Shown here piece by piece: positions 447 through 40,671 of a stretch of DNA of 64,000 bases. The position numbers were made by a program, and so were the translations under genes. The stretch is taken from positions 186,001 through 250,000 of the IMG/VR virus record IMGVR_UViG_3300046616_000314, one strand, 5' to 3'. The notes beneath the pieces were generated by a model. The model did not search any database, was not told the origin of the DNA, and saw only the letters and a list, made by a program, of their open reading frames with translations. The DNA comes from a virus. The first letter of the stretch is position 1. Every line of letters begins with the position of its first letter.

Positions 447-905
447 TTACGAATTTTCGTCAAAAATTTCGGCGTTTTGGAAAATGGCTTGGAAACGGGG
501 ATGAGCCATGAACTGTCCGACAGTGGATTTATCGGCGTAGATGAATCCCAGATCGGGGTCTTCGATGAACGCATAGTGACCCGGAGACGCATACTCGCGC
601 GCAGCGTCTTCCTTCAGAACCTCAAGGTCCAGGGCAAACATGAAGGGAATGACGTTGGTTGAAACGTCGGTCAGTTGCCGCCAAATCTGGTGGTGGATGG
701 CTTGTGAAGCATCCCAGAAATAGATGTCGTTTTGGAGAATGAACCCGCGAGCCAGACCATACTTTGCACGCTCTATTAGAGCTTTAGTGCCATTACGGGT
801 CGGGTTGATCGTAACCAATACATCGCGCCCGCGAATCTCAAAACGCTCAACTTTTTCGTTGAGTAGCGATTCTTCAATTATATCGATGTACTTGCGAAGG
901 CTCAT
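447..905 (-). CDS. Unknown protein with capsid-targeting-like N-terminus (152 aa)
   Basis: Unrecognised as a family. The N-terminus MSLRKYIDIIEESL resembles the T4 capsid-targeting sequence (short basic/hydrophobic stretch ending in an I/L-x-E site cut by the prohead protease). The body has no clear motif. There is no Shine-Dalgarno; a TAAATA box (912-917) ends 6 nt before the ATG, as for the other capsid-targeted candidates. Virion packaging is an inference. Confidence 0.75.
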   Translation of the reverse strand: MSLRKYIDIIEESLLNEKVERFEIRGRDVLVTINPTRNGTKALIERAKYGLARGFILQNDIYFWDASQAIHHQIWRQLTDVSTNVIPFMFALDLEVLKEDAAREYASPGHYAFIEDPDLGFIYADKSTVGQFMAHPRFQAIFQNAEIFDENS

Positions 906-12949: not shown

Positions 12950-13690
12950 TTACCGGGCGAGGATTTTCAGCATCATGGGGCGCGCGGATTGCTCAATGAA
13001 ACGAGCAAGACGTTTGTTCAGAGCCCGTGTGTTTCGCTCATTTAAATTATCTAAGAATTCATCACCGAACGAGGTTTGCTTAATTACCTTAATCAACTCT
13101 TGGACCGAAGCCTTTGAATATTTTTCCAGACGTTGCCGGGCTATATCGCTATCAAGGTGTTTCGCCAGGGCACTAATCAAGCTTCCAAAATCATGTACGC
13201 CTTCTTGATAGTAAGCGTTGGTTTCGTCGTTGTCGTTAAAATAACCAGCATGGTCGCCGCCATCATACTTTGAAATCGAGCTTTTCAGACGCGGTGCTCT
13301 CAGACTCATAAGATAATGTTGGAACTCGTGGACAAAATCTTTTTCCATGCCCGTTATTCGTGTTTCGATATATTTCAAGCTACTTGGTTCCAATAGAACC
13401 GCGAGCATGATAAGTTTGTTACCTTTACCAAGATAACCGAAGGCAGCGCGAGCTACATGATCGGTTTTACGCGGTGCTAACAGTAACCACAATTTAGGAT
13501 ATTCCAGTCCCATGGCGGTAAATTCAATTCCATAACTACCGCCGTGGAATTGGGATGGATGCATATAGTCTTCAAGGTTGTCTTTGTTCTGAGATATGAA
13601 ATGCTTGATCTGACTGAAAGCCATGGTGGCTTCAAGCCTAGCGGCTTTGTCGGAAGCTTCATCTTCGTTAATAATCTCTGAATAGCGCAT
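12950..13690 (-). CDS. Zincin metalloprotease-like protein with capsid-targeting-like N-terminus (246 aa)
   Basis: N-terminus MRYSEIINEDE fits the T4 capsid-targeting pattern with a predicted cut after INE. Residues ~128-132 read HEFQH, a canonical HExxH zinc site, in the context FVHEFQHYLMSL. About 30 residues on, ETNAYYQEG supplies candidate third ligands. There is no signal peptide. A TAAATA box sits 5 nt before the ATG and there is no Shine-Dalgarno. Inference: a protease packed in the head and possibly injected with DNA. Metal binding and packaging are untested. Confidence 0.85.
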   Translation of the reverse strand: MRYSEIINEDEASDKAARLEATMAFSQIKHFISQNKDNLEDYMHPSQFHGGSYGIEFTAMGLEYPKLWLLLAPRKTDHVARAAFGYLGKGNKLIMLAVLLEPSSLKYIETRITGMEKDFVHEFQHYLMSLRAPRLKSSISKYDGGDHAGYFNDNDETNAYYQEGVHDFGSLISALAKHLDSDIARQRLEKYSKASVQELIKVIKQTSFGDEFLDNLNERNTRALNKRLARFIEQSARPMMLKILAR

Positions 13691-13800: not shown

Positions 13801-13989
13801 ATGTTCTTTTGTGATACGAGTTTTGTTAAGGCACAATACGAATTACTGAAATTAGACAGTGCTTCGGATATCATTGTTCGGAATTTTGAAGAAAGAATTG
13901 CGAATACTCCAAAGGGTACTGGGAATGTTCAATTCCTGTTGCATCACTTTGAAAACATTAAGGCAAACCTAAATATGGTATGCTGTTAA
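13801..13989 (+). CDS. Small hypothetical protein (62 aa)
   Basis: CAGGGA precedes the ATG and a promoter lies upstream. Helical, no known domain. Its 3' end overlaps the next gene's start by 10 nt and contains that gene's late-type box. Confidence 0.45.
   Translation: MFFCDTSFVKAQYELLKLDSASDIIVRNFEERIANTPKGTGNVQFLLHHFENIKANLNMVCC
13970..13975 (+). promoter_or_regulatory. TAAATA late-type box abutting start codon
   Basis: CTAAATA then TGGT then ATG of the 314-aa protein. It lies inside the preceding small gene. Confidence 0.55.
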
Positions 13990-14924
13990 CCGATCTCTTT
14001 GAAGCACCCCTAGCCGACATCAATATGCACGGCGACAATTGGGATGACACCGTTTCAAACGCAAAGCCTTTGCTCTCGGGTAAAGATGTCTATGACAACA
14101 TGACCCAGAATTCTTTCGTGTCTAAGGTAGATAGAGCGCACGCGCGCAATCCCGAAGTTCACGCAAAACTCTACAGCATGTTCGAAAAACATGGGGAGAA
14201 ATTTTATCTGTACTTGGTCAACAGTCCAGAAATGTCATTCTTCCATGACAATCTTGACTGGGGCATCCTGAACCCAACCAAGAATACTGTTGCCTTCTCT
14301 ATGTTCCCAAAAGAAATGCGCCAGCAAGTCATTTCTCGGAATAAAGAGAAAGCCATCCAAGTCATCTTGACGCACAACGAAGGCGGCAAGGAACGTCACC
14401 CGTTGACGCCCTGGACGATCATGCACCGCATAGTCCATGCGTTCTTCGGCGCAAATGCTGACATGGTATCGGCTCCGCGATCCTTGGTCGATCAAGAGGC
14501 TATGAGAACTTGCTTCAATAATTTCTTCGTTAAAGCCAAAGAAGGCTATGAAGGTTTGGGTTATACTGACACCCCCACACGTCACCATTATTTGACGGAC
14601 ATTTGTACGTTCAAATCCGCCAGAGATCGCAACATCCTAGTTACGAGTGGCGGAAACTATATGGAATTGTATGTGGAACTGATGACGCAATACCTATGGC
14701 ACGGTAAGATCATCTTCAAAGAGGCGCCGCCTAGAATTATTCAATTCAATCACGGCTTCCAATATAGCAGCAAGAAACGCCCCGAAGCCAGAGACGTTGA
14801 GACGATCTATAAACTGACGAACCCAGAGGTTATCAACGATTCGATTAGAATCTTGAAAGACAGCCTGGAAAAGTTGTTTGCCGACGCTATCAAGCAAGCT
14901 GAAGGTAAGATTATCGTCTGCTAA
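13980..14924 (+). CDS. Capsid-targeted candidate with HRxxH motif (314 aa)
   Basis: N-terminus MLLTDLFEAPLADI has a predicted prohead-protease site after LFE. The core contains LTPWTIMHRIVHAFFGA (HRxxH, with Arg in place of the catalytic Glu of zincins) and later VELMTQYLWHGKIIF. Both blocks recur in the protein at 39478-40671, so the two are paralogues. Possibly an inactive zincin relative or another metal fold. Late-type box 4 nt before the ATG, no Shine-Dalgarno. Confidence 0.8.
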   Translation: MLLTDLFEAPLADINMHGDNWDDTVSNAKPLLSGKDVYDNMTQNSFVSKVDRAHARNPEVHAKLYSMFEKHGEKFYLYLVNSPEMSFFHDNLDWGILNPTKNTVAFSMFPKEMRQQVISRNKEKAIQVILTHNEGGKERHPLTPWTIMHRIVHAFFGANADMVSAPRSLVDQEAMRTCFNNFFVKAKEGYEGLGYTDTPTRHHYLTDICTFKSARDRNILVTSGGNYMELYVELMTQYLWHGKIIFKEAPPRIIQFNHGFQYSSKKRPEARDVETIYKLTNPEVINDSIRILKDSLEKLFADAIKQAEGKIIVC

Positions 14925-14939
14925 CCCAAATTCTTTTGT

Positions 14940-15029
14940 TGGAGGAAGCGGTGGGATTCGAACCCACGGTAGACTCTCGCCTACGCTGGTTTTCAAGACC
15001 AGAACCTTAAACCACTCGGTCACGCTTCC
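14940..15029 (-). tRNA. tRNA-Ser (TGA)
   Basis: Acceptor GGAAGCG/CGCTTCC. Anticodon stem CTGGT/ACCAG with loop CTTGAAA gives TGA. Long type II variable arm, T loop TTCGAAT, discriminator U and encoded CCA. Confidence 0.9.
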
Positions 15030-15044
15030 AACTACAAAAAAATT

Positions 15045-15120
15045 TGGGGCGAGTGACGGGTTTCGAACCCGCGACCACCAGATTCACAATCCGGTGCTCT
15101 ACCACTGAGCTACACCCGCC
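15045..15120 (-). tRNA. tRNA-His (GTG)
   Basis: Anticodon stem CCGGA/TCTGG with loop TTGTGAA gives GTG. The acceptor is GCGGGTG/CACTCGC with an extra G at -1 opposite C73, the His identity pair, and CCA is encoded. It lies 12 nt from the HisRS-like gene. Confidence 0.93.
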
Positions 15121-15132
15121 ACCGATACTGGC

Positions 15133-15742
15133 TCAATTAAGAGCCAGCATAAGCCGATCCACACCAATTGCCCATCCGTTGCCTTCAGCGTACTTGCCGC
15201 CACCAGCGATTTGCTTTTGGGCTCCTAGTTTGGAGCATTCAACTTCGAACCCGTCAGCTACGTAATATGTGAGACCACGTTTGACAGTTTCATTAAATGT
15301 ACAATCTAGATCGAAAGATTGCAAGCACTTTCGAAGAATATCCACAACTTCTTGCTGATTTCCTTCGCCGAGCAATTCCAATCCGAATTGTGTAAACTCT
15401 CGATAACGACCAGCCTGGGGGCGTTCGTATCGATAGCAGCGAGATACGTAGAAAATACGCTTGGTCTTACAAGTCTTTGACCACGTATCTCGCCACAGTT
15501 CTTGAACTAAACCTGTTACTTCAGGAATTAGACAAACGGGACGATCACCTTTATCGTTGAAAGCCCACATTTGGTTGATGATTTCAGGTCCAGCTTTGTC
15601 AATAAACGTTTGCTGTTCCCAAATAGCCGGAAGAATTACTTCCTCATAGCCAGCTTCAATGAACTGACCCCCGAAGCTTTTCGATGACTTGGGTATACAG
15701 CCGGGCTTCGTCGCCCATCAAAACTCTAGTTCCGCGTAACAT
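15133..15742 (-). CDS. Histidyl-tRNA synthetase-like catalytic domain, +1 frameshift
   Basis: Reading from ATG 15742 (MLRGTRVLMGDEARLY) the frame stops after about 28 codons. A +1 shift at a run of five C on the plus strand (15668-15672; CGG GGG T on the message) restores it: the protein continues FIEAGYEEVILPAIWEQ (motif 1 with its Pro), CYRYERPQAGRYREF (motif 2), GLTYYVADGFE (HisA) and GGGKY followed by AIGVDRL (motif 3). Total ~203 aa, lacking the anticodon-binding domain of HisRS. Either programmed frameshifting, a sequencing slip, or a recent mutation. Adjacent to tRNA-His. Confidence 0.8.
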
Positions 15743-15752
15743 ATTATGTTCC

Positions 15753-15920
15753 TTATAGTTTTGCCAGTTGAGCCTTTAGGTCTGCAATTTGGCGCATGGT
15801 TTGGGGAACGTTGATTTCGGCGGTTGCCGAATCTTTCTTTCCCAGAGAGGTTTTGAGAAAATTTTCCAGAGTGTCGATGCGCTCTTGAATCTTTGCTCGT
15901 TTCTTGTCCGTCTTGCTCAT
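15753..15920 (-). CDS. Small coiled-coil protein (55 aa)
   Basis: ATG at 15920 overlaps the TGA of the upstream gene (ATGA). Encodes MSKTDKKRAKIQERIDTLEN and a Leu-rich C-terminus (MRQIADLKAQLAKL). Heptad-like spacing suggests a coiled coil. It precedes the HisRS-like gene by 10 nt and is probably co-transcribed. Confidence 0.65.
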   Translation of the reverse strand: MSKTDKKRAKIQERIDTLENFLKTSLGKKDSATAEINVPQTMRQIADLKAQLAKL

Positions 15921-16147
15921 ACGTCGGTCGCCTTACGATGGCTCACATGGTCACGAGCACGATCTTGGATGACTTCAGAATCCATTTCAGCCTGGAATAC
16001 ATTGGTCACTTTCCAGCCACGGACCCATTCACCATTAGACTTCAGATCGATGACCCGATTGTCGGTGGCAAATTCAGTCGGAATCCAAGTGACTTGGATG
16101 GCGCCTTCGCGCTCAAGACGGCATTGTTTGTGAGTATTCTTTTTCAT
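15917..16147 (-). CDS. Conserved small phage protein (76 aa)
   Basis: Contains CRLEREGAIQVTWIPTEFA and GEWVRGWKVTNVF, a pattern (basic strand, TWIP, then V-x-x-W-x-V) that I associate with uncharacterised small phage proteins. AGAAAGAGA-type ribosome site. Downstream of tRNA-Cys in the same direction. Confidence 0.75.
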   Translation of the reverse strand: MKKNTHKQCRLEREGAIQVTWIPTEFATDNRVIDLKSNGEWVRGWKVTNVFQAEMDSEVIQDRARDHVSHRKATDV

Positions 16148-16176
16148 AATATTCTCTCTTTCTTTAGTTCAAAATT

Positions 16177-16262
16177 TGGAGGCGACGGTGGGACTCGCAC
16201 CCACGAAGGAATAATCCACGGGATTTGCAGTCCCGCCCCTTTGCTACTCGGGACACGTCGCC
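16177..16262 (-). tRNA. tRNA-Cys (GCA) with enlarged variable arm
   Basis: Acceptor GGCGACG/CGTCGCC. Anticodon stem CGGGA/TCCCG with loop CTGCAAA gives GCA. T arm GTGGG/CCCAC, U73, encoded CCA. The variable region is 14 nt with a possible GGA/TCC stem, a type II shape not expected for tRNA-Cys. Confidence 0.85.
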
Positions 16263-16274
16263 CTATGTTTTTTC

Positions 16275-16358
16275 TGGTGGGAGCGGAAGGAATTTGCACC
16301 CTCACAGCCGAAACGGGAGATTTACAGTCTCTTGGGCTCACTCATGCCCAGCACTCCC
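16275..16358 (-). tRNA. tRNA-Tyr (GTA)
   Basis: Acceptor GGGAGTG/CGCTCCC. Anticodon loop CTGTAAA gives GTA on a short GAGA/TCTC stem. Long variable arm as usual for bacterial tRNA-Tyr, A73 and encoded CCA. Flanked by CTATGTTTTTTCT and AGAAAAAACATAG, a 13-bp leader-trailer match. Confidence 0.85.
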
Positions 16359-16382
16359 ACAAGAAAAAACATAGAACTACCA

Positions 16383-16492
16383 AGTGCTGAATGGGATTCG
16401 AGCCCATGGTTCCCAACTCTAATAACGCCCTACCGCAGGCTTGTTAGGAATCTAGCGGTGTCAACCTTAGACCAACTCAGTCATCAGGCACT
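16383..16492 (-). tRNA. Atypical tRNA-like gene, anticodon unassigned
   Basis: Acceptor strands AGTGC(C)TGA/TCAGCACT pair with one bulged C. T arm ATGGG-CTCGAAT-CCCAT is normal and the D region reads TGACTGAGTTGGTCTAAGG. The central part is oversized: ACCGC/GCGGT closes an 18-nt loop, or alternatively GCTAG/CAAGC closes an 8-nt loop ATTCCTAA. The acceptor helix continues outward as TACCAAGTGC/GCACTTGGTA. No CCA encoded. Confidence 0.6.
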
Positions 16493-16501
16493 TGGTAATC
16501 T

Positions 16502-16592
16502 TGGCGGAAACGGAGAGATTCGAACTCTCGGAGGGCTATCCACCCTCGACGCTTTAGCAAAGCGTTGGTTTAAACCACTCACCCACGTTTCC
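16502..16592 (-). tRNA. tRNA-Ser (GCT)
   Basis: Acceptor GGAAACG/CGTTTCC. Anticodon stem ACGCT/AGCGT with loop TTGCTAA gives GCT. Long variable arm, T loop TTCGAAT, G73 and encoded CCA. Confidence 0.92.
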
Positions 16593-16611
16593 AAACCATG
16601 GTGTAATAGTT

Positions 16612-16703
16612 TGGCGGACAGGGAGGGATTCGAACCCTCGGAACCTTTTAACGGGTTCGCCACCTTTCCAAGATGGTGTGTTCGACCACTCCACCACCTG
16701 TCC
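16612..16703 (-). tRNA. tRNA-Ser (GGA)
   Basis: Acceptor GGACAGG/CCTGTCC. Anticodon stem CCATC/GGTGG with loop TTGGAAA gives GGA. Long variable arm, G73, encoded CCA. TAATAGTTT and AAACTATTA flank it as a 9-bp leader-trailer match. Confidence 0.9.
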
Positions 16704-16728
16704 ATTAAACTATTACGAAACTACTTTG

Positions 16729-16815
16729 AGGATGCGATAGGATTCGAACCTATGGTGGACTCTCACCCACTCCCGCTTTCGAGGCAGGCGCTTTAAACCG
16801 CTCAGCCACGCATCC
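16729..16815 (-). tRNA. tRNA-Ser (CGA)
   Basis: Acceptor GGATGCG/CGCATCC. Anticodon stem CCTGC/GCGGG with loop CTCGAAA gives CGA. Long variable arm; no CCA encoded. The acceptor helix extends without a mismatch into a 20-bp inverted repeat, GAAACTACTTTGAGGATGCG against its complement. Confidence 0.9.
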
Positions 16816-16868
16816 TCAAAGTAGTTTCTTCTGCAATTCCTTTCATGGTTAAATTTTAGACAATAAAA

Positions 16869-16892
16869 AAGCCCCGCTTTTCAGCAGGGCTT
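16869..16892 (-). terminator. Rho-independent terminator upstream of the tRNA cluster
   Basis: On the minus strand AAGCCCTGCTGAAAAGCGGGGCTT is followed by TTTT. It lies between the promoter at 17066-17094 and the first tRNA, so tRNA transcription from that promoter would require read-through. Confidence 0.75.
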
Positions 16893-16924
16893 ACATCGGA
16901 CGATTTTGGTTTTAAGAGGACTTT

Positions 16925-17011
16925 TTAGTCCTTGTAACCCTCGCGCGAAGTCCCCTGCCCTGAAAGAGCATGACTGGAATAGCAATACGAGTGTGACGAT
17001 GAAACGAACAT
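16925..17011 (-). CDS. Possible 28-aa leader ORF
   Basis: ATG 17011 to TAA 16925 encodes MFVSSSHSYCYSSHALSGQG and eight more residues. It is rich in Ser (7 of the first 17 residues), with His, Cys and Tyr, which are exactly the amino acids of the downstream tRNAs. AAAGG lies before the start. Between a strong promoter and a terminator this resembles an attenuation leader; that is an inference. Confidence 0.45.
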   Translation of the reverse strand: MFVSSSHSYCYSSHALSGQGTSREGYKD

Positions 17012-19352: not shown

Positions 19353-19379
19353 GACGTGTTCAGTAAAAGGTTTTCCCAA

Positions 19380-19895
19380 ATGTCCCAGTTTAAAGCAATT
19401 CTTGACGAGCATGATTCCATCGCGTGGGACATCGATGGAACTTTGCTGTATGTTGATGACAATATGAAAATTCGTGAAGCAGCGCATTCGGCGTACTTCC
19501 GACAGTATATTATCGACAATCCGCAAAAGAAACATTACATCGTGACCTTCCGTGACCCAGCTTGGGCGGGACGTGTATTTACCGAATTGGAGTCACTGGG
19601 TATGGAAGATGCCCGAAGCCATTTCGAAGACGTTCATGCGTGTCCGGTAGAGCTTCATGACGCATGGCAATTGCGTAGTGCCAGCCCTGCGACCGTTACT
19701 CACTATGGATTCACTCACGCCGAAGTCGCGCACGCTGTTTCGAATTTTCCGCTCTGGAAGGGTATGGCGTCCAACGCGCTAGGTGCAACCATCTTGGTTG
19801 ACGACATGCCCACATGGGTCGAACAAGGCTGCGCAAAACACAATGTGGATTTGCTGGACATTACCGGTATGCGTCACCTGAAGGGTTCACGCTAG
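19380..19895 (+). CDS. HAD-superfamily phosphatase (171 aa)
   Basis: Motif I DIDGTLL at residues ~20-26, later TFRD and ILVDDMP, the HAD nucleophile and acidic motifs. ATG at 19380 (MSQFKA) is chosen because the upstream in-frame ATG (19356) would fall at the transcription start. Distinct from the nucleotidase at 12436. Substrate unknown. Confidence 0.8.
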   Translation: MSQFKAILDEHDSIAWDIDGTLLYVDDNMKIREAAHSAYFRQYIIDNPQKKHYIVTFRDPAWAGRVFTELESLGMEDARSHFEDVHACPVELHDAWQLRSASPATVTHYGFTHAEVAHAVSNFPLWKGMASNALGATILVDDMPTWVEQGCAKHNVDLLDITGMRHLKGSR

Positions 19896-19901
19896 TCGGC
19901 A

Positions 19902-19907
19902 TAAATA
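19902..19907 (+). promoter_or_regulatory. TAAATA late-type box abutting start codon
   Basis: ATAAATA, TCCGT, then ATG of the ART-like gene. Confidence 0.6.
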
Positions 19908-19912
19908 TCCGT

Positions 19913-20590
19913 ATGCGTAAGTATATGGATATCATCAACGAAGCCCTGGACGAAGCCGAGAAGCTTGAGTTGCCTGACATTGAAGTCGGTGACGAAGTTT
20001 TGGTGGGAAAATTTAAGAACCGTAAAGCTACGGTGAAGGGTTTCGAGAAAGATGATCACAACCAGCCGGTTTTAAAGACCAGCAAGGGCGATCAGAAGCT
20101 TTTCAAGCCTCGCATCCCAAAACTTGAAGAACCCATTGAGGAAGCGCGTGGAGCGTTCTTGAAGTTATATCATTTCACGCCGATGAAATCTGTACCAAGC
20201 GTACAGGCTATGGGTCTAGACCCGTCAAAACGAGCGGCTAATTTTGAGATAACGCCAGAGAACCAGATGGTATATCTAGCCTCGGATGCTGGACATGCCG
20301 CGCAATACATTTATTATCAAGAGGTTAGTGAAGGGTTACTGCTTTCCGTTGACGTTTCTAAATTAGACCCGTCAAAATTGTGCCCAGATGATGTTGATCT
20401 CGAAGACATGCTTGGAGCCCGTTCAAAGCCCTGGTACGAACACAATTGGAAGGAAAGCCTTCGGAAGTGTGGTCAGTGCGGCTATCAAGCCATTATTCCA
20501 GCTTCGGCACTATTTGTGGAAGCACGTGTGGTTCAAAATCGAGAAATGGAAACCATTGGTATTCCATTGTCTGAATTTAAGCAGGCTTAG
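19913..20590 (+). CDS. Capsid-targeted ADP-ribosyltransferase-like protein (225 aa)
   Basis: N-terminus MRKYMDIINEALDEA matches the capsid-targeting pattern with a predicted cut after INE. Residues ~25-70 (VGDEVLVGKFKNRKATVKGF, then GDQKLFKPR) form a KOW-like module recurrent in large-phage proteins. Residues ~85-225 contain LYHFTPMKSVPSV, GLDPSKR and MVYLASDAGHAAQY, the H...GL...VYL arrangement of ADP-ribosyltransferase folds, with ALFVEARV as a candidate Glu strand. T4 Alt is a packaged ART, so an Alt-like role is an attractive inference. No Shine-Dalgarno. Confidence 0.7.
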   Translation: MRKYMDIINEALDEAEKLELPDIEVGDEVLVGKFKNRKATVKGFEKDDHNQPVLKTSKGDQKLFKPRIPKLEEPIEEARGAFLKLYHFTPMKSVPSVQAMGLDPSKRAANFEITPENQMVYLASDAGHAAQYIYYQEVSEGLLLSVDVSKLDPSKLCPDDVDLEDMLGARSKPWYEHNWKESLRKCGQCGYQAIIPASALFVEARVVQNREMETIGIPLSEFKQA

Positions 20591-20948
20591 GAAGGTCTGA
20601 TTTCTTACGTTTCAGACGGAACGAGCCTGAGTTGATGGCTTCACAGTGCCATTCGGGGTAGGCTTCAGCCCACATAGGAAATTCGTTACGAATTTGACCA
20701 GAACGCCCGGTGATGATGATCACGGTACGGCGTGTGGAATTTTTGGCGTCCACCATGTAGCGACCGAAGGTCGAGTGTGCGTTAGCGACGGTGTAGCCGT
20801 GAAGGTCCAGGGAAGGGCAGAAGCGAACATCCCTGATAGGTTGGCTCACGCATTGAGGCGCGTATGTAGGTTCGCGGGAGGCTGCGAACTTTGGCAACAC
20901 TCCCGCGATGAATTTTTCCCATAAAGATTTGTCTTCTGAAGACAGCAT
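20577..20948 (-). CDS. Smr-domain protein (123 aa)
   Basis: Residues ~47-100 contain LDLHGYTVANAHSTFGRYM and TVIIITGRSG, the LDLHG...T-G-(K/R)-G signature of small MutS-related (Smr) domains, which can be nucleases. C-terminus is basic. Overlaps the ART-like gene convergently by 14 nt. TAAATA box 5 nt before the ATG. Confidence 0.8.
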   Translation of the reverse strand: MLSSEDKSLWEKFIAGVLPKFAASREPTYAPQCVSQPIRDVRFCPSLDLHGYTVANAHSTFGRYMVDAKNSTRRTVIIITGRSGQIRNEFPMWAEAYPEWHCEAINSGSFRLKRKKSDLPKPA

Positions 20949-20953
20949 ATCCT

Positions 20954-20959
20954 TATTTA
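20954..20959 (-). promoter_or_regulatory. TAAATA late-type box abutting start codon
   Basis: GTAAATA, AGGAT, then ATG of the Smr gene; lies just before the stop of the lysin gene. Confidence 0.5.
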
Positions 20960-21505
20960 CCTACCGGGAATACGAACGTAAACGTGGGCTCCAATGGTCT
21001 GACGACTGGTCGCTTTGCGGGTCCAACGGGGGATGCCCAGTTTTTTCGAATAGAACGAGTTGGCGCCGCCAGTGGTGTCCGCACGGGAGTTGTCCATGAT
21101 CTGAACGGCGTATTGGACCATTTTATTCCAGCTATCGATCTCGCGCGGCAAGAGAGATTGCGTGGGACGAATGGTCCACGAGTATTGTGGTCCTGCACGG
21201 CTGCGTTCCCAGATGGCTTCACAAAAAGTTGTGGGACCATTCCGAGTAGCTTTGAGTCGGTTTCGGGTTACGAATCCAACCGCCATGATGTCGGCTTTAG
21301 TGCTACCACGAACCTCGTGGTAAAGGTTAAGAGCGAGACAGGTTGCTTCTTTTTTCTGTGTTTCATCTAGTCCATCCAATGCACTCGCATGACGCGGGGA
21401 ACTTTGAATGGCGTTTACCGTCTGAATTTCAGATGCCGCCGAAGCGGGGGTACTAAAGAATAAAGATAGAAACAGAAACACAGGGGCGATTTTGCGTAAT
21501 CGCAT
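20957..21505 (-). CDS. Secreted SleB/CwlJ-type cell wall hydrolase, probable endolysin (182 aa)
   Basis: Residues 1-24 are a signal peptide (MRLRKIAPVFLFLSLFFSTP, cut near ASA-AS). The mature part contains CLALNLYHEVRGSTKADIMAVG, the catalytic-Glu region of Hydrolase_2/SleB enzymes, and a C-terminal GGANSFY...RKATSRQTIGAHVY. The enzyme would cleave peptidoglycan after Sec export. AGGAG is 7 nt before the ATG and a strong promoter lies upstream. Confidence 0.9.
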   Translation of the reverse strand: MRLRKIAPVFLFLSLFFSTPASAASEIQTVNAIQSSPRHASALDGLDETQKKEATCLALNLYHEVRGSTKADIMAVGFVTRNRLKATRNGPTTFCEAIWERSRAGPQYSWTIRPTQSLLPREIDSWNKMVQYAVQIMDNSRADTTGGANSFYSKKLGIPRWTRKATSRQTIGAHVYVRIPGR

Positions 21506-22526: not shown

Positions 22527-22946
22527 TTATTCGGGGATTTCTAGACCGTTGCGAATGCGGTCCCAGAATTCCATTCCACCCTTGGTGTACATCATTTCAT
22601 CAGACGGGATATAACCCCAGTCGTTCATGATGTCGTACGTGGAATCTTCTTCGTAATATTTCGCTAGATCAGCGACATCCTTCGTCCAATCCCAATGCTC
22701 GATACGATCATTGATTGGGTTGTAAAAGACGTACACGCCAAATTTTGTGATACCAACGAAAGCATCGGTTTCAAAACCGTCGTGCTTCAACATGCCGTCA
22801 GGATGATTGTCGAGATATTCCTTGGCTTGAGCCAGGGTCATTCCGTCCCGATGGGCTCCACCAACCTCGCCTTGGAGAGATTGTGAGTGATCGTAAGGAA
22901 CAATGTTCTCGATCAGATTTTGAAAATTACGATACCAATTTGACAT
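22527..22946 (-). CDS. Hypothetical protein (139 aa)
   Basis: N-terminus MSNWYRNFQNLIENIVPYD could be a capsid-targeting variant (cut after LIE), but this is weaker than the others. Acidic, aromatic-rich, unrecognised. TAAATA box 4 nt before the ATG, no Shine-Dalgarno. Confidence 0.7.
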   Translation of the reverse strand: MSNWYRNFQNLIENIVPYDHSQSLQGEVGGAHRDGMTLAQAKEYLDNHPDGMLKHDGFETDAFVGITKFGVYVFYNPINDRIEHWDWTKDVADLAKYYEEDSTYDIMNDWGYIPSDEMMYTKGGMEFWDRIRNGLEIPE

Positions 22947-39465: not shown

Positions 39466-39473
39466 TATAAATA
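39466..39473 (+). promoter_or_regulatory. Perfect T4-type late promoter TATAAATA abutting start codon
   Basis: TATAAATA, TAGT, then ATG at 39478. Exact T4 late consensus. Transcription would start at or next to the ATG. Confidence 0.7.
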
Positions 39474-39477
39474 TAGT

Positions 39478-40671
39478 ATGCGCTGGCTAGAAATTATAAA
39501 TGAAGCACCAATTGCCGATTTCGGTACAGAAGGTAATTTGGATCGTTATGGCTCGTTCAGAGATTCCGATCTCAAAGCCATTCGGAATCCCAAATGGGTA
39601 GAAAAAGTTCATAGTGCATTTTCCAAGACGCCCTATGATTTCAACATCTATGTGCATAACCGTGCTTATGGGATGGTTGAAATTGATGGCAAAGCATATG
39701 ATTTGCGAAACCTAGAACATTACGCGGCGGGTAAGGTTGGCAATCAGCCCTGGTCCGTAGTTGCTGATTTCTTCCAAAAGCCAGCGAATGCCGCCAGCGC
39801 GATCACGTGTTTGCTGTTAGAAAATGAGGGTGATGAACAGTTTGCTTTCACACCCTGGATTTTGGCGCACCGATGCGCGCACGCGGCGGTGATCAATAAT
39901 ATTCAGCCCGCAACCGATTCCATGAATCCAGCGCGCGACCTTCAGGAAGATTTCTTTGCTGATTATAGATCGTTCATCGAACTGATGGATATGAAATTTT
40001 CATTTAATGATTATCCAGACTATGAACCCCGCCAAAATTTTACCTCGCAAGTATCTGCCATCGCCAAGATAGTCGGTAAAACTCGTGCGATGCGAACTGG
40101 AAATCTAGCCAATCCGGGTGAGTTTGTTATTGAAATGCTAACACAGTATTTGATCCAAGGAAAAATTACATTTAACAGACCCATTATGGACAATATTGGT
40201 TTTAGAAATCGCCCATTGATCGATGCAAAAGATCACAAATTTTATGATCTTATCTTGGACAAATATGGATGGGGTATCAATCACGACACCGATAACACTA
40301 TTTTGCAGATTGCTCGTATTCTAGTTCCAAAACCAAAATCCCGAATTATTCCACAATTCTTGGTGGTTGATAAAGACGGTGAAATTTTTGCATCTATGTC
40401 GGATGAAAAACGCGCCGCCGAATATCGCGCCAAGGGCTATACCGTTCAGGAAAAATACCCTTCGCGTCAAGCCATGACGGCTCATGCCAAATACCAAGCC
40501 GAAATAAAGCGCGTAATTGAAATGATGCATTATTGGGTAGAGGAAGGTTTGTTTGCAAAAGCCACGGCTACCGAAGACGCTGCGAAGTTTCTTGATCTAG
40601 CGGAAACAAATTTCAACCGCATGGCAAAGAAGATTTTCGATAACTGTGTTGGTAAACTTTTGATCCTGTAA
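39478..40671 (+). CDS. Capsid-targeted candidate with HRxxH motif (397 aa)
   Basis: N-terminus MRWLEIINEAPIADF with a predicted cut after INE. Shares with the 13980-14924 protein the block FTPWILAHRCAHAA (HRxxH) and the block VIEMLTQYLIQGKITF. It has an extra ~80-residue C-terminal region with FLVVDKDGEIFASMSDEKRAAEY, a small domain seen in phage internal proteins. No Shine-Dalgarno; perfect late box upstream. Confidence 0.82.
   Translation: MRWLEIINEAPIADFGTEGNLDRYGSFRDSDLKAIRNPKWVEKVHSAFSKTPYDFNIYVHNRAYGMVEIDGKAYDLRNLEHYAAGKVGNQPWSVVADFFQKPANAASAITCLLLENEGDEQFAFTPWILAHRCAHAAVINNIQPATDSMNPARDLQEDFFADYRSFIELMDMKFSFNDYPDYEPRQNFTSQVSAIAKIVGKTRAMRTGNLANPGEFVIEMLTQYLIQGKITFNRPIMDNIGFRNRPLIDAKDHKFYDLILDKYGWGINHDTDNTILQIARILVPKPKSRIIPQFLVVDKDGEIFASMSDEKRAAEYRAKGYTVQEKYPSRQAMTAHAKYQAEIKRVIEMMHYWVEEGLFAKATATEDAAKFLDLAETNFNRMAKKIFDNCVGKLLIL

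Follow-up and report, generated by a model that had tools for sequence, protein, structure and literature searches.

A candidate head-packaged effector of an Atu_ph07-like megaphage combines a capsid-targeting-like peptide, a KOW-like module and an ADP-ribosyltransferase fold

The gene at 19913-20590 of the window analyzed here, a stretch of 64,000 nucleotides (positions 186,001 to 250,000) of the IMG/VR virus record IMGVR_UViG_3300046616_000314, raises the question of whether a very large phage might carry in its head, and deliver to its host, an ADP-ribosyltransferase (ART) built differently from the Alt protein of phage T4. The record (G000) is a virus genome of 561,116 bases, and it can be described as an Atu_ph07-like megaphage because its type II topoisomerase is 53% identical to that of Sinorhizobium phage Phosso and 49% identical to that of Agrobacterium phage Atu_ph07. 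The open frame at 19913-20590 (+) is real, and its start codon is likely to be the ATG at 19913, since a relative with the same module (L047) opens with MRAHEIMTE and since the box CATAAATA sits at 19900-19907; other ATGs occur in frame at 19925 and upstream at 19814, the latter overlapping the preceding gene. With a probability of about two in three, we consider the encoded protein to be a late-expressed, head-packaged and injected effector of an Atu_ph07-like megaphage, and one of a large set of proteins bearing similar N-terminal tags. The gene and its parts are the following.

19913..20590, + strand: gene for the capsid-targeting-like/KOW/ART protein, 225 residues in three parts
19900..19907, + strand: T4-late-promoter-like box CATAAATA, 13 nt upstream of ATG 19913
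19913..19942, + strand: capsid-targeting-sequence-like peptide MRKYMDIINE, with an (I/L)xE site (INE/A, the slash here and below marking the putative cleavage site) and an alignment to T4 ipII/ipIII
19973..20131, + strand: KOW-like module, residues 21-73 (sub-threshold Pfam KOW; conservation across loci)
20138..20542, + strand: ART-superfamily domain, residues ~76-210, resembling the Tpt1/KptA C-lobe (profiles, relatives, model)

The fold of the C-terminal domain

The C-terminal domain presents a first motif, Y86-H87-F-T followed by G-L, a second motif, V120-Y121-L, and a third, GYQAIIP, at residue 190. A previous reading of this locus, made from the sequence alone, had recognized in its H...GL...VYL pattern the signature of an ART fold, and profile searches corroborate this. 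The protein matches PHROG 13493 (E=3.7e-4), the function of which is unassigned, and its sole tblastn relative, encoded by LR756508, an uncultured phage of 484 kb (30% identity, E=2e-9), matches, as the window protein itself does not, PF01885 Tpt1/KptA (6.6e-5, over part of the model only and below the cut-off), and further PARP (0.01) and ART-PolyVal (0.011) in Pfam, as well as PHROG 5470, RNA 2'-phosphotransferase (1.4e-5). The profile of a six-member family (A4) recovers the true KptA genes of sister phages (L200 and L207) and, when compared with the PDB, the family profile finds KptA/Tpt1 structures (E=4e-7), followed by DarT1 (0.14) and PARP2 (0.95). The residues H, T, G, L and P are invariant in the A4 alignment, and the Tyr, His and Thr of the first motif are invariant in the A7 alignment, together with the following Gly. 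Single-sequence AlphaFold modeling of the whole protein yielded a predicted local distance difference test (pLDDT) score of 34; when a weak model based on seven rows (pLDDT 48) was submitted to VIA-align, all the listed rows were ART-superfamily chains, with Tpt1 first (82 residues aligned, root-mean-square deviation 5.3). With profile and model evidence combined, the assignment to the ART superfamily is secure, and NAD chemistry is predicted from it.

The designation of the protein as Alt-like, taken as a family assignment, was not supported. The domain is of the H...Y type, without an R-S-E triad and with the Tpt1/KptA C-lobe as its nearest counterpart, and the best BLASTP match to T4 Alt (E=0.84) lies outside the ART region. 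The LRH motif of the KptA N-lobe is not found in the protein either, residues 1-75 being made up of the tag and the KOW-like module. ART-PolyVal (PF18760) gave no match to the protein at E up to 10, and no close relatives of the full-length 225-residue protein were found in IMG/VR, GTDB genomes or plasmids. An apparent match in Phynn turned out to be rIIA and was rejected as a chance match.

The N-terminal peptide, the late-type box and other tagged proteins

In T4, Alt and the internal proteins reach the core of the prohead by means of sequences of 10-20 residues, which gp21 cleaves off (PMC5694885), and the internal proteins of T-even phages are diverse anti-defense effectors that have the capsid-targeting sequence (CTS) as their only common element (PMC3012670). 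The window protein begins with a short peptide ending in an (I/L)xE cleavage-type site ([IL]xE sites occur at residues 8 and 12), and MRKYMDIINE/A can be aligned residue by residue, without gaps, to the MKTYQEFIAE/A of T4 ipII and ipIII; the N-terminus of T4 Alt, for comparison, reads MELITELFDED. The specificity of the gp21 protease is (I/L)xE, and a gp21-type prohead protease is encoded in G000 (Peptidase_S77, E=5.5e-27, 337919-338380). As had been proposed from the sequence, the N-terminus of the protein resembles a T4-type CTS, and packaging may be predicted from this resemblance.

The box upstream of the gene points to late expression. ATAAATA is the proposed late promoter, as predicted, of the jumbo phages CBB and GAP32 (PMC5259590). 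The pattern ATAAATA-N4..8-ATG is found at 34 sites in the G000 genome, versus 4 for the reversed pattern, and the distance from ATAAATA to the ATG at these 34 sites is 11-14 nt (window examples at 19900, 39466, 13703, 919 and 22958). By the geometry of T4, transcription from a box at this distance would start at the ATG or within ~1 base of it, and the resulting mRNAs would be nearly leaderless. In counts that cover the window, the 34 promoter sites and selected loci, the tag regular expression is matched by 20 of the 29 late-box open reading frames (ORFs) of at least 60 residues and by 13 of 181 background window ORFs (p=7e-13), and an initial MR, on which the expression makes no demand, is present in 16/29 and 11/181, respectively (p=1e-9), these p values being indicative because the background set contains spurious ORFs. 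Fellow members and candidates in the window are listed below.

12950..13690, - strand: fellow member, putative zincin with HEFQH (HExxH-type); N-terminus MRYSEIINE/D, late box 13703-13696
39478..40671, + strand: fellow member, C-terminal part unassigned; TATAAATA at 39466, N-terminus MRWLEIINE/A
13980..14924, + strand: fellow candidate without a Pfam match; CTAAATA box, N-terminus MLLTDLFE/A
447..905, - strand: fellow candidate; CATAAATA box, N-terminus MSLRKYIDIIEE

Other loci of G000 encode a late-box, tagged ART-PolyVal+GNAT protein (L014, ART-PolyVal E=2.5e-19), a late-box SprT-like protein with a degenerate tag (L030) and ART-like proteins with YHGT/FHFT..GVSLT motifs (L007, L017, L031 and L036, read by motif and, for L017, also by profile). 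ART-PolyVal searches on ten related or KOW-bearing records returned 22 matches, located in six of them, and nearly all of these open like MR[YFEW]..[IL].E. When the same start-picking rule was applied to both groups, a strict M[RK]..[IL]xE start was present in 15 of 21 ART-PolyVal ORFs versus 6 of 87 other ORFs at the same loci (p=2e-9), and tag and late box coincided at the same ATG in 8 ART-PolyVal ORFs versus 3 others (p=7e-5). A tagged protein of a sister contig (L039:384-1496, +) joins ART-PolyVal (6e-12) to NUDIX (9e-13), that is, a writer and an ADP-ribose hydrolase in one chain.

A second N-terminal class, with the same late box, is fused to ART and other domains and is perhaps another targeting tag. 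A papain-like-looking domain (SCKFTS...H.Y) is common to L057:8034-8843 (-) and L064:5980-7644 (+), where it sits beside different ART domains and different tags.

22527-22946 (-), L057:8034-8843, L057:6922-8037 and L187: MSNWYRN[LF].NL[IL]E class

The KOW-like module and its partners

Between tag and ART domain lies a module for which Pfam KOW (PF00467) yields E=0.032 and 14.5 bits, against a curated cut-off of 22.3 bits; across members of the module family the score ranges from 13.4 to 17.6 bits, never above that cut-off. The module is not a chance resemblance, because its copies in 17 compared proteins are 63-91% identical and because a scan of IMG/VR places it at no fewer than (at least) 119 loci. 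The KOW-like module had also been noticed in the sequence-only reading and, with Pfam KOW itself remaining below threshold, it has proved to be widespread in uncultivated large phages. It is unseen in cultured phages, to judge by the 50,697 deposited phage records, none of which contains it, and it was not found in PHROGs. Only four GTDB contigs carry it; all four are contigs from metagenome-assembled genomes in Acidobacteria-type bins, and they are perhaps misbinned phage.

The C-terminal domains attached to the 17 compared copies are unrelated and have been swapped. Domains seen joined to the module include a deoxynucleotidase-type HAD domain (L061, Pfam NT5C E=4e-10), a zincin (L131, MPTase-PolyVal E=5e-4), sub-threshold ART-PolyVal (L060 and L064), an ART-like pattern read by motif (L084) and other folds, likewise read by motif only (L056, L057, L059, L083 and L103). 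A relative in G001, a genome with a topoisomerase 67% identical to that of G000, carries a module 80% identical, starts with MRAHEIMTE and has a different C-terminus that, by its motifs, looks like a cysteine peptidase. The module also occurs on its own, in proteins of 63 residues starting with MKIKDIL. Among the fusions without a Pfam match, motifs liken L056 to a Cys peptidase and L057:5989-6774 (+) to a protein kinase, and L103:5989-7191 (+) resembles by eye a CD-NTase/OAS-type nucleotidyltransferase.

Being kept across unrelated partners, the module is likelier to serve delivery or packaging than the choice of an ART substrate. This bears directly on the likeliest of the alternatives, according to which the protein would not be packaged at all and would process RNA or DNA ends in the infected cell, as a KptA-like NAD-dependent 2'-phosphotransferase or an end-capping ART, with the KOW-like module binding RNA. 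KOW motifs are often RNA-binding, the nearest fold by both profile and model is that of Tpt1/KptA, and sister phages do possess true KptA genes. The protein lacks the LRH-bearing N-lobe of KptA, however, the presence of the same module on unrelated domains argues against an RNA-repair partner, and the gene shares its late-type box and CTS-like start with a tagged set that is rich in other ART types. We consider this alternative unlikely.

Packaging, activity and known systems

Atu_ph07 itself may supply a comparable set in a cultured phage. Its genes gp53-gp63 (L219:19485-30593) are eleven consecutive genes, nearly all of which open with M[RK]W.QL.E and most of which carry a YRGM/YRGI motif that is reminiscent of other ARTs (a motif reading, with no Pfam match); gp53 also has a zeta-toxin domain (1.5e-14). 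They can be regarded as a candidate tagged ART array. These genes are located within CDS 31-76 of Atu_ph07, 29 products of which, mostly with function-less annotations, have been found in virions by mass spectrometry (PMC6102473), and it is by this location only that they lend support to the packaged-effector interpretation. It has also been argued that myovirus ARTs are frequently packaged (PMC9503650, PMC5512222).

The same genes weigh on a second alternative, in which the N-terminal motif is a sequence favored by leaderless late translation, or some other localization signal, in late genes of any function. The box near the ATG, the nearly leaderless transcripts and the dominance of MR starts are in line with it, as is the fact that the motif is mostly missing from head-region genes with leaders. 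Yet the motif, 8-10 residues long, has (I/L)xE at its end, as the T4 tag does, and it is also found on ARTs that have no late box at the ATG and in gp53-gp63, which have ordinary leaders before their start codons and lie inside the virion-protein cluster; this explanation is improbable. A catalytically dead, structural or decoy internal protein of ART fold that binds NAD or ADP-ribose would fit a fast-evolving family and a third motif without an acidic residue, but it is the least probable of the three, the Tyr-His-x-Thr and following Gly being invariant in A7, as expected of a retained NAD site, and KptA being active although it has no Glu there.

Several observations weigh against a packaged, active ART. 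The His/Glu pair suggested as catalytic is found only in part: His87 lies in the YHxT motif, but there is no Glu at the expected third motif and no conserved acid in the family alignment, so that the protein might have little activity, another activity or none. The seven-row model is poor (predicted template modeling score 0.43), and Foldseek, proposed as a check in the sequence-only reading, placed Tpt1 with NAD in the best row, with an E of only 0.89; in VIA-align, Z is at most 4.1, for the same Tpt1. The tag is short and partly defined by the regular expression. In several head-region genes close to that of the prohead protease, the late box is found at ~-33, with a leader, rather than at -12, and the effector genes may therefore be under different regulation. 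Finally, neither Phosso nor Atu_ph07, the nearest relatives in culture, was found to have this particular ART, and Phosso yielded no ART-PolyVal match.

Under the interpretation of a head-packaged effector, which we favor, transcription would start from the T4-late-type box right at the start codon, with expression predicted from sequence. The ten-residue N-terminus would then dock the protein to the prohead core, where a gp21-type protease would cut at INE/A, and the KOW-like module would act as an adaptor for packaging, DNA or scaffold binding or tail passage, rather than as a substrate selector. The mature protein would enter the cell along with the DNA and, as its fold suggests, a Tpt1/KptA-like ART would act, with NAD+ as its substrate, on a host macromolecule or a defense nucleotide. 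Because the third motif has no acidic residue, modification of a nucleic acid or a phosphate is somewhat likelier than that of arginine in the manner of Alt; RNA polymerase, put forward earlier as a target purely by analogy with Alt, may be one option among many. The tagged set in these phages would comprise ARTs, zincins, SprT-like, GNAT, NUDIX, NT5C and other proteins.

More tentatively, it is possible to postulate a polymorphic system of head-packaged effectors in Atu_ph07-like and other uncultivated megaphages, in which a CTS peptide, an optional KOW-like adaptor and exchangeable effector domains (ARTs of many types, zincins, GNAT, NUDIX, nucleotidase and zeta-toxin-like kinase) would be produced from late, near-leaderless transcripts and co-injected, the window protein being a KptA-like ART that would act on nucleic acids or phosphates. 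No description of a set of tagged megaphage effectors, or of the KOW-like module, was found in the open-access literature. The novelty lies in the combination of a Tpt1-like ART with a KOW-like adaptor that can be swapped and with a short tag carried by many proteins that are small and separate. If this holds true, the largest myophages inject dozens of enzymes, versus one or two in T4; the ten-residue tag and the late box provide a rule for recognizing head-packaged effectors and anti-defense proteins from DNA only; and a role is explained for the long row of unannotated genes in the Atu_ph07 virion-protein cluster.

The gene has the following neighbors, and translations of the GGIRTHGRL type in frames of both strands at ~14700-17000 of the window suggest a dense array of tRNA genes.

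19356-19895: HAD-like gene (weak)
20577-20948, - strand: Smr-domain gene
20957-21505, - strand: endolysin-like gene

Among known systems, the C-lobe of Tpt1/KptA (PF01885) is the best profile and structure match to the window ART, with which it shares YHxT...GL...V[YH]L and a third motif without Glu, unlike Alt or most PARPs; it differs in having an N-lobe (LRH) where the window protein has a tag and a KOW-like module. DarT shares the ART fold, and the family profile reaches DarT1 weakly (E=0.14, below significance), but no toxin-antitoxin context is seen around the window gene. T4 Alt would be similar, if the window protein is packaged, in being a late ART with an N-terminal head-targeting peptide and presumed injection; it is, however, a member of the Alt/VIP2 clade with an R-S-E active site (PMC5512222) and nearly 700 residues, as opposed to 225 residues, the H...Y type and a KOW-like module. 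The earlier expectation, that the protein would be an analogue of a packaged ART but of smaller size and different build, is supported. Polyvalent proteins, MuF-fused effectors and ART-PolyVal (PF18760) combine, as the tagged set would, packaging with phage effector domains of the ART and peptidase kinds, and the ART-PolyVal proteins of sister megaphages bear the same kind of tag as the window protein; polyvalent and MuF effectors are nevertheless long multidomain proteins or MuF/portal fusions, whereas here the proteins are small and separate, each with its own tag. Similar too are the T4 internal proteins IPI-IPIII, with a ten-residue start (MKTYQEFIAE compared with MRKYMDIINE) and diverse bodies behind one tag (PMC3012670), in contrast to which the megaphage set would run to dozens of candidates with many enzyme folds and, often, an additional KOW-like module.
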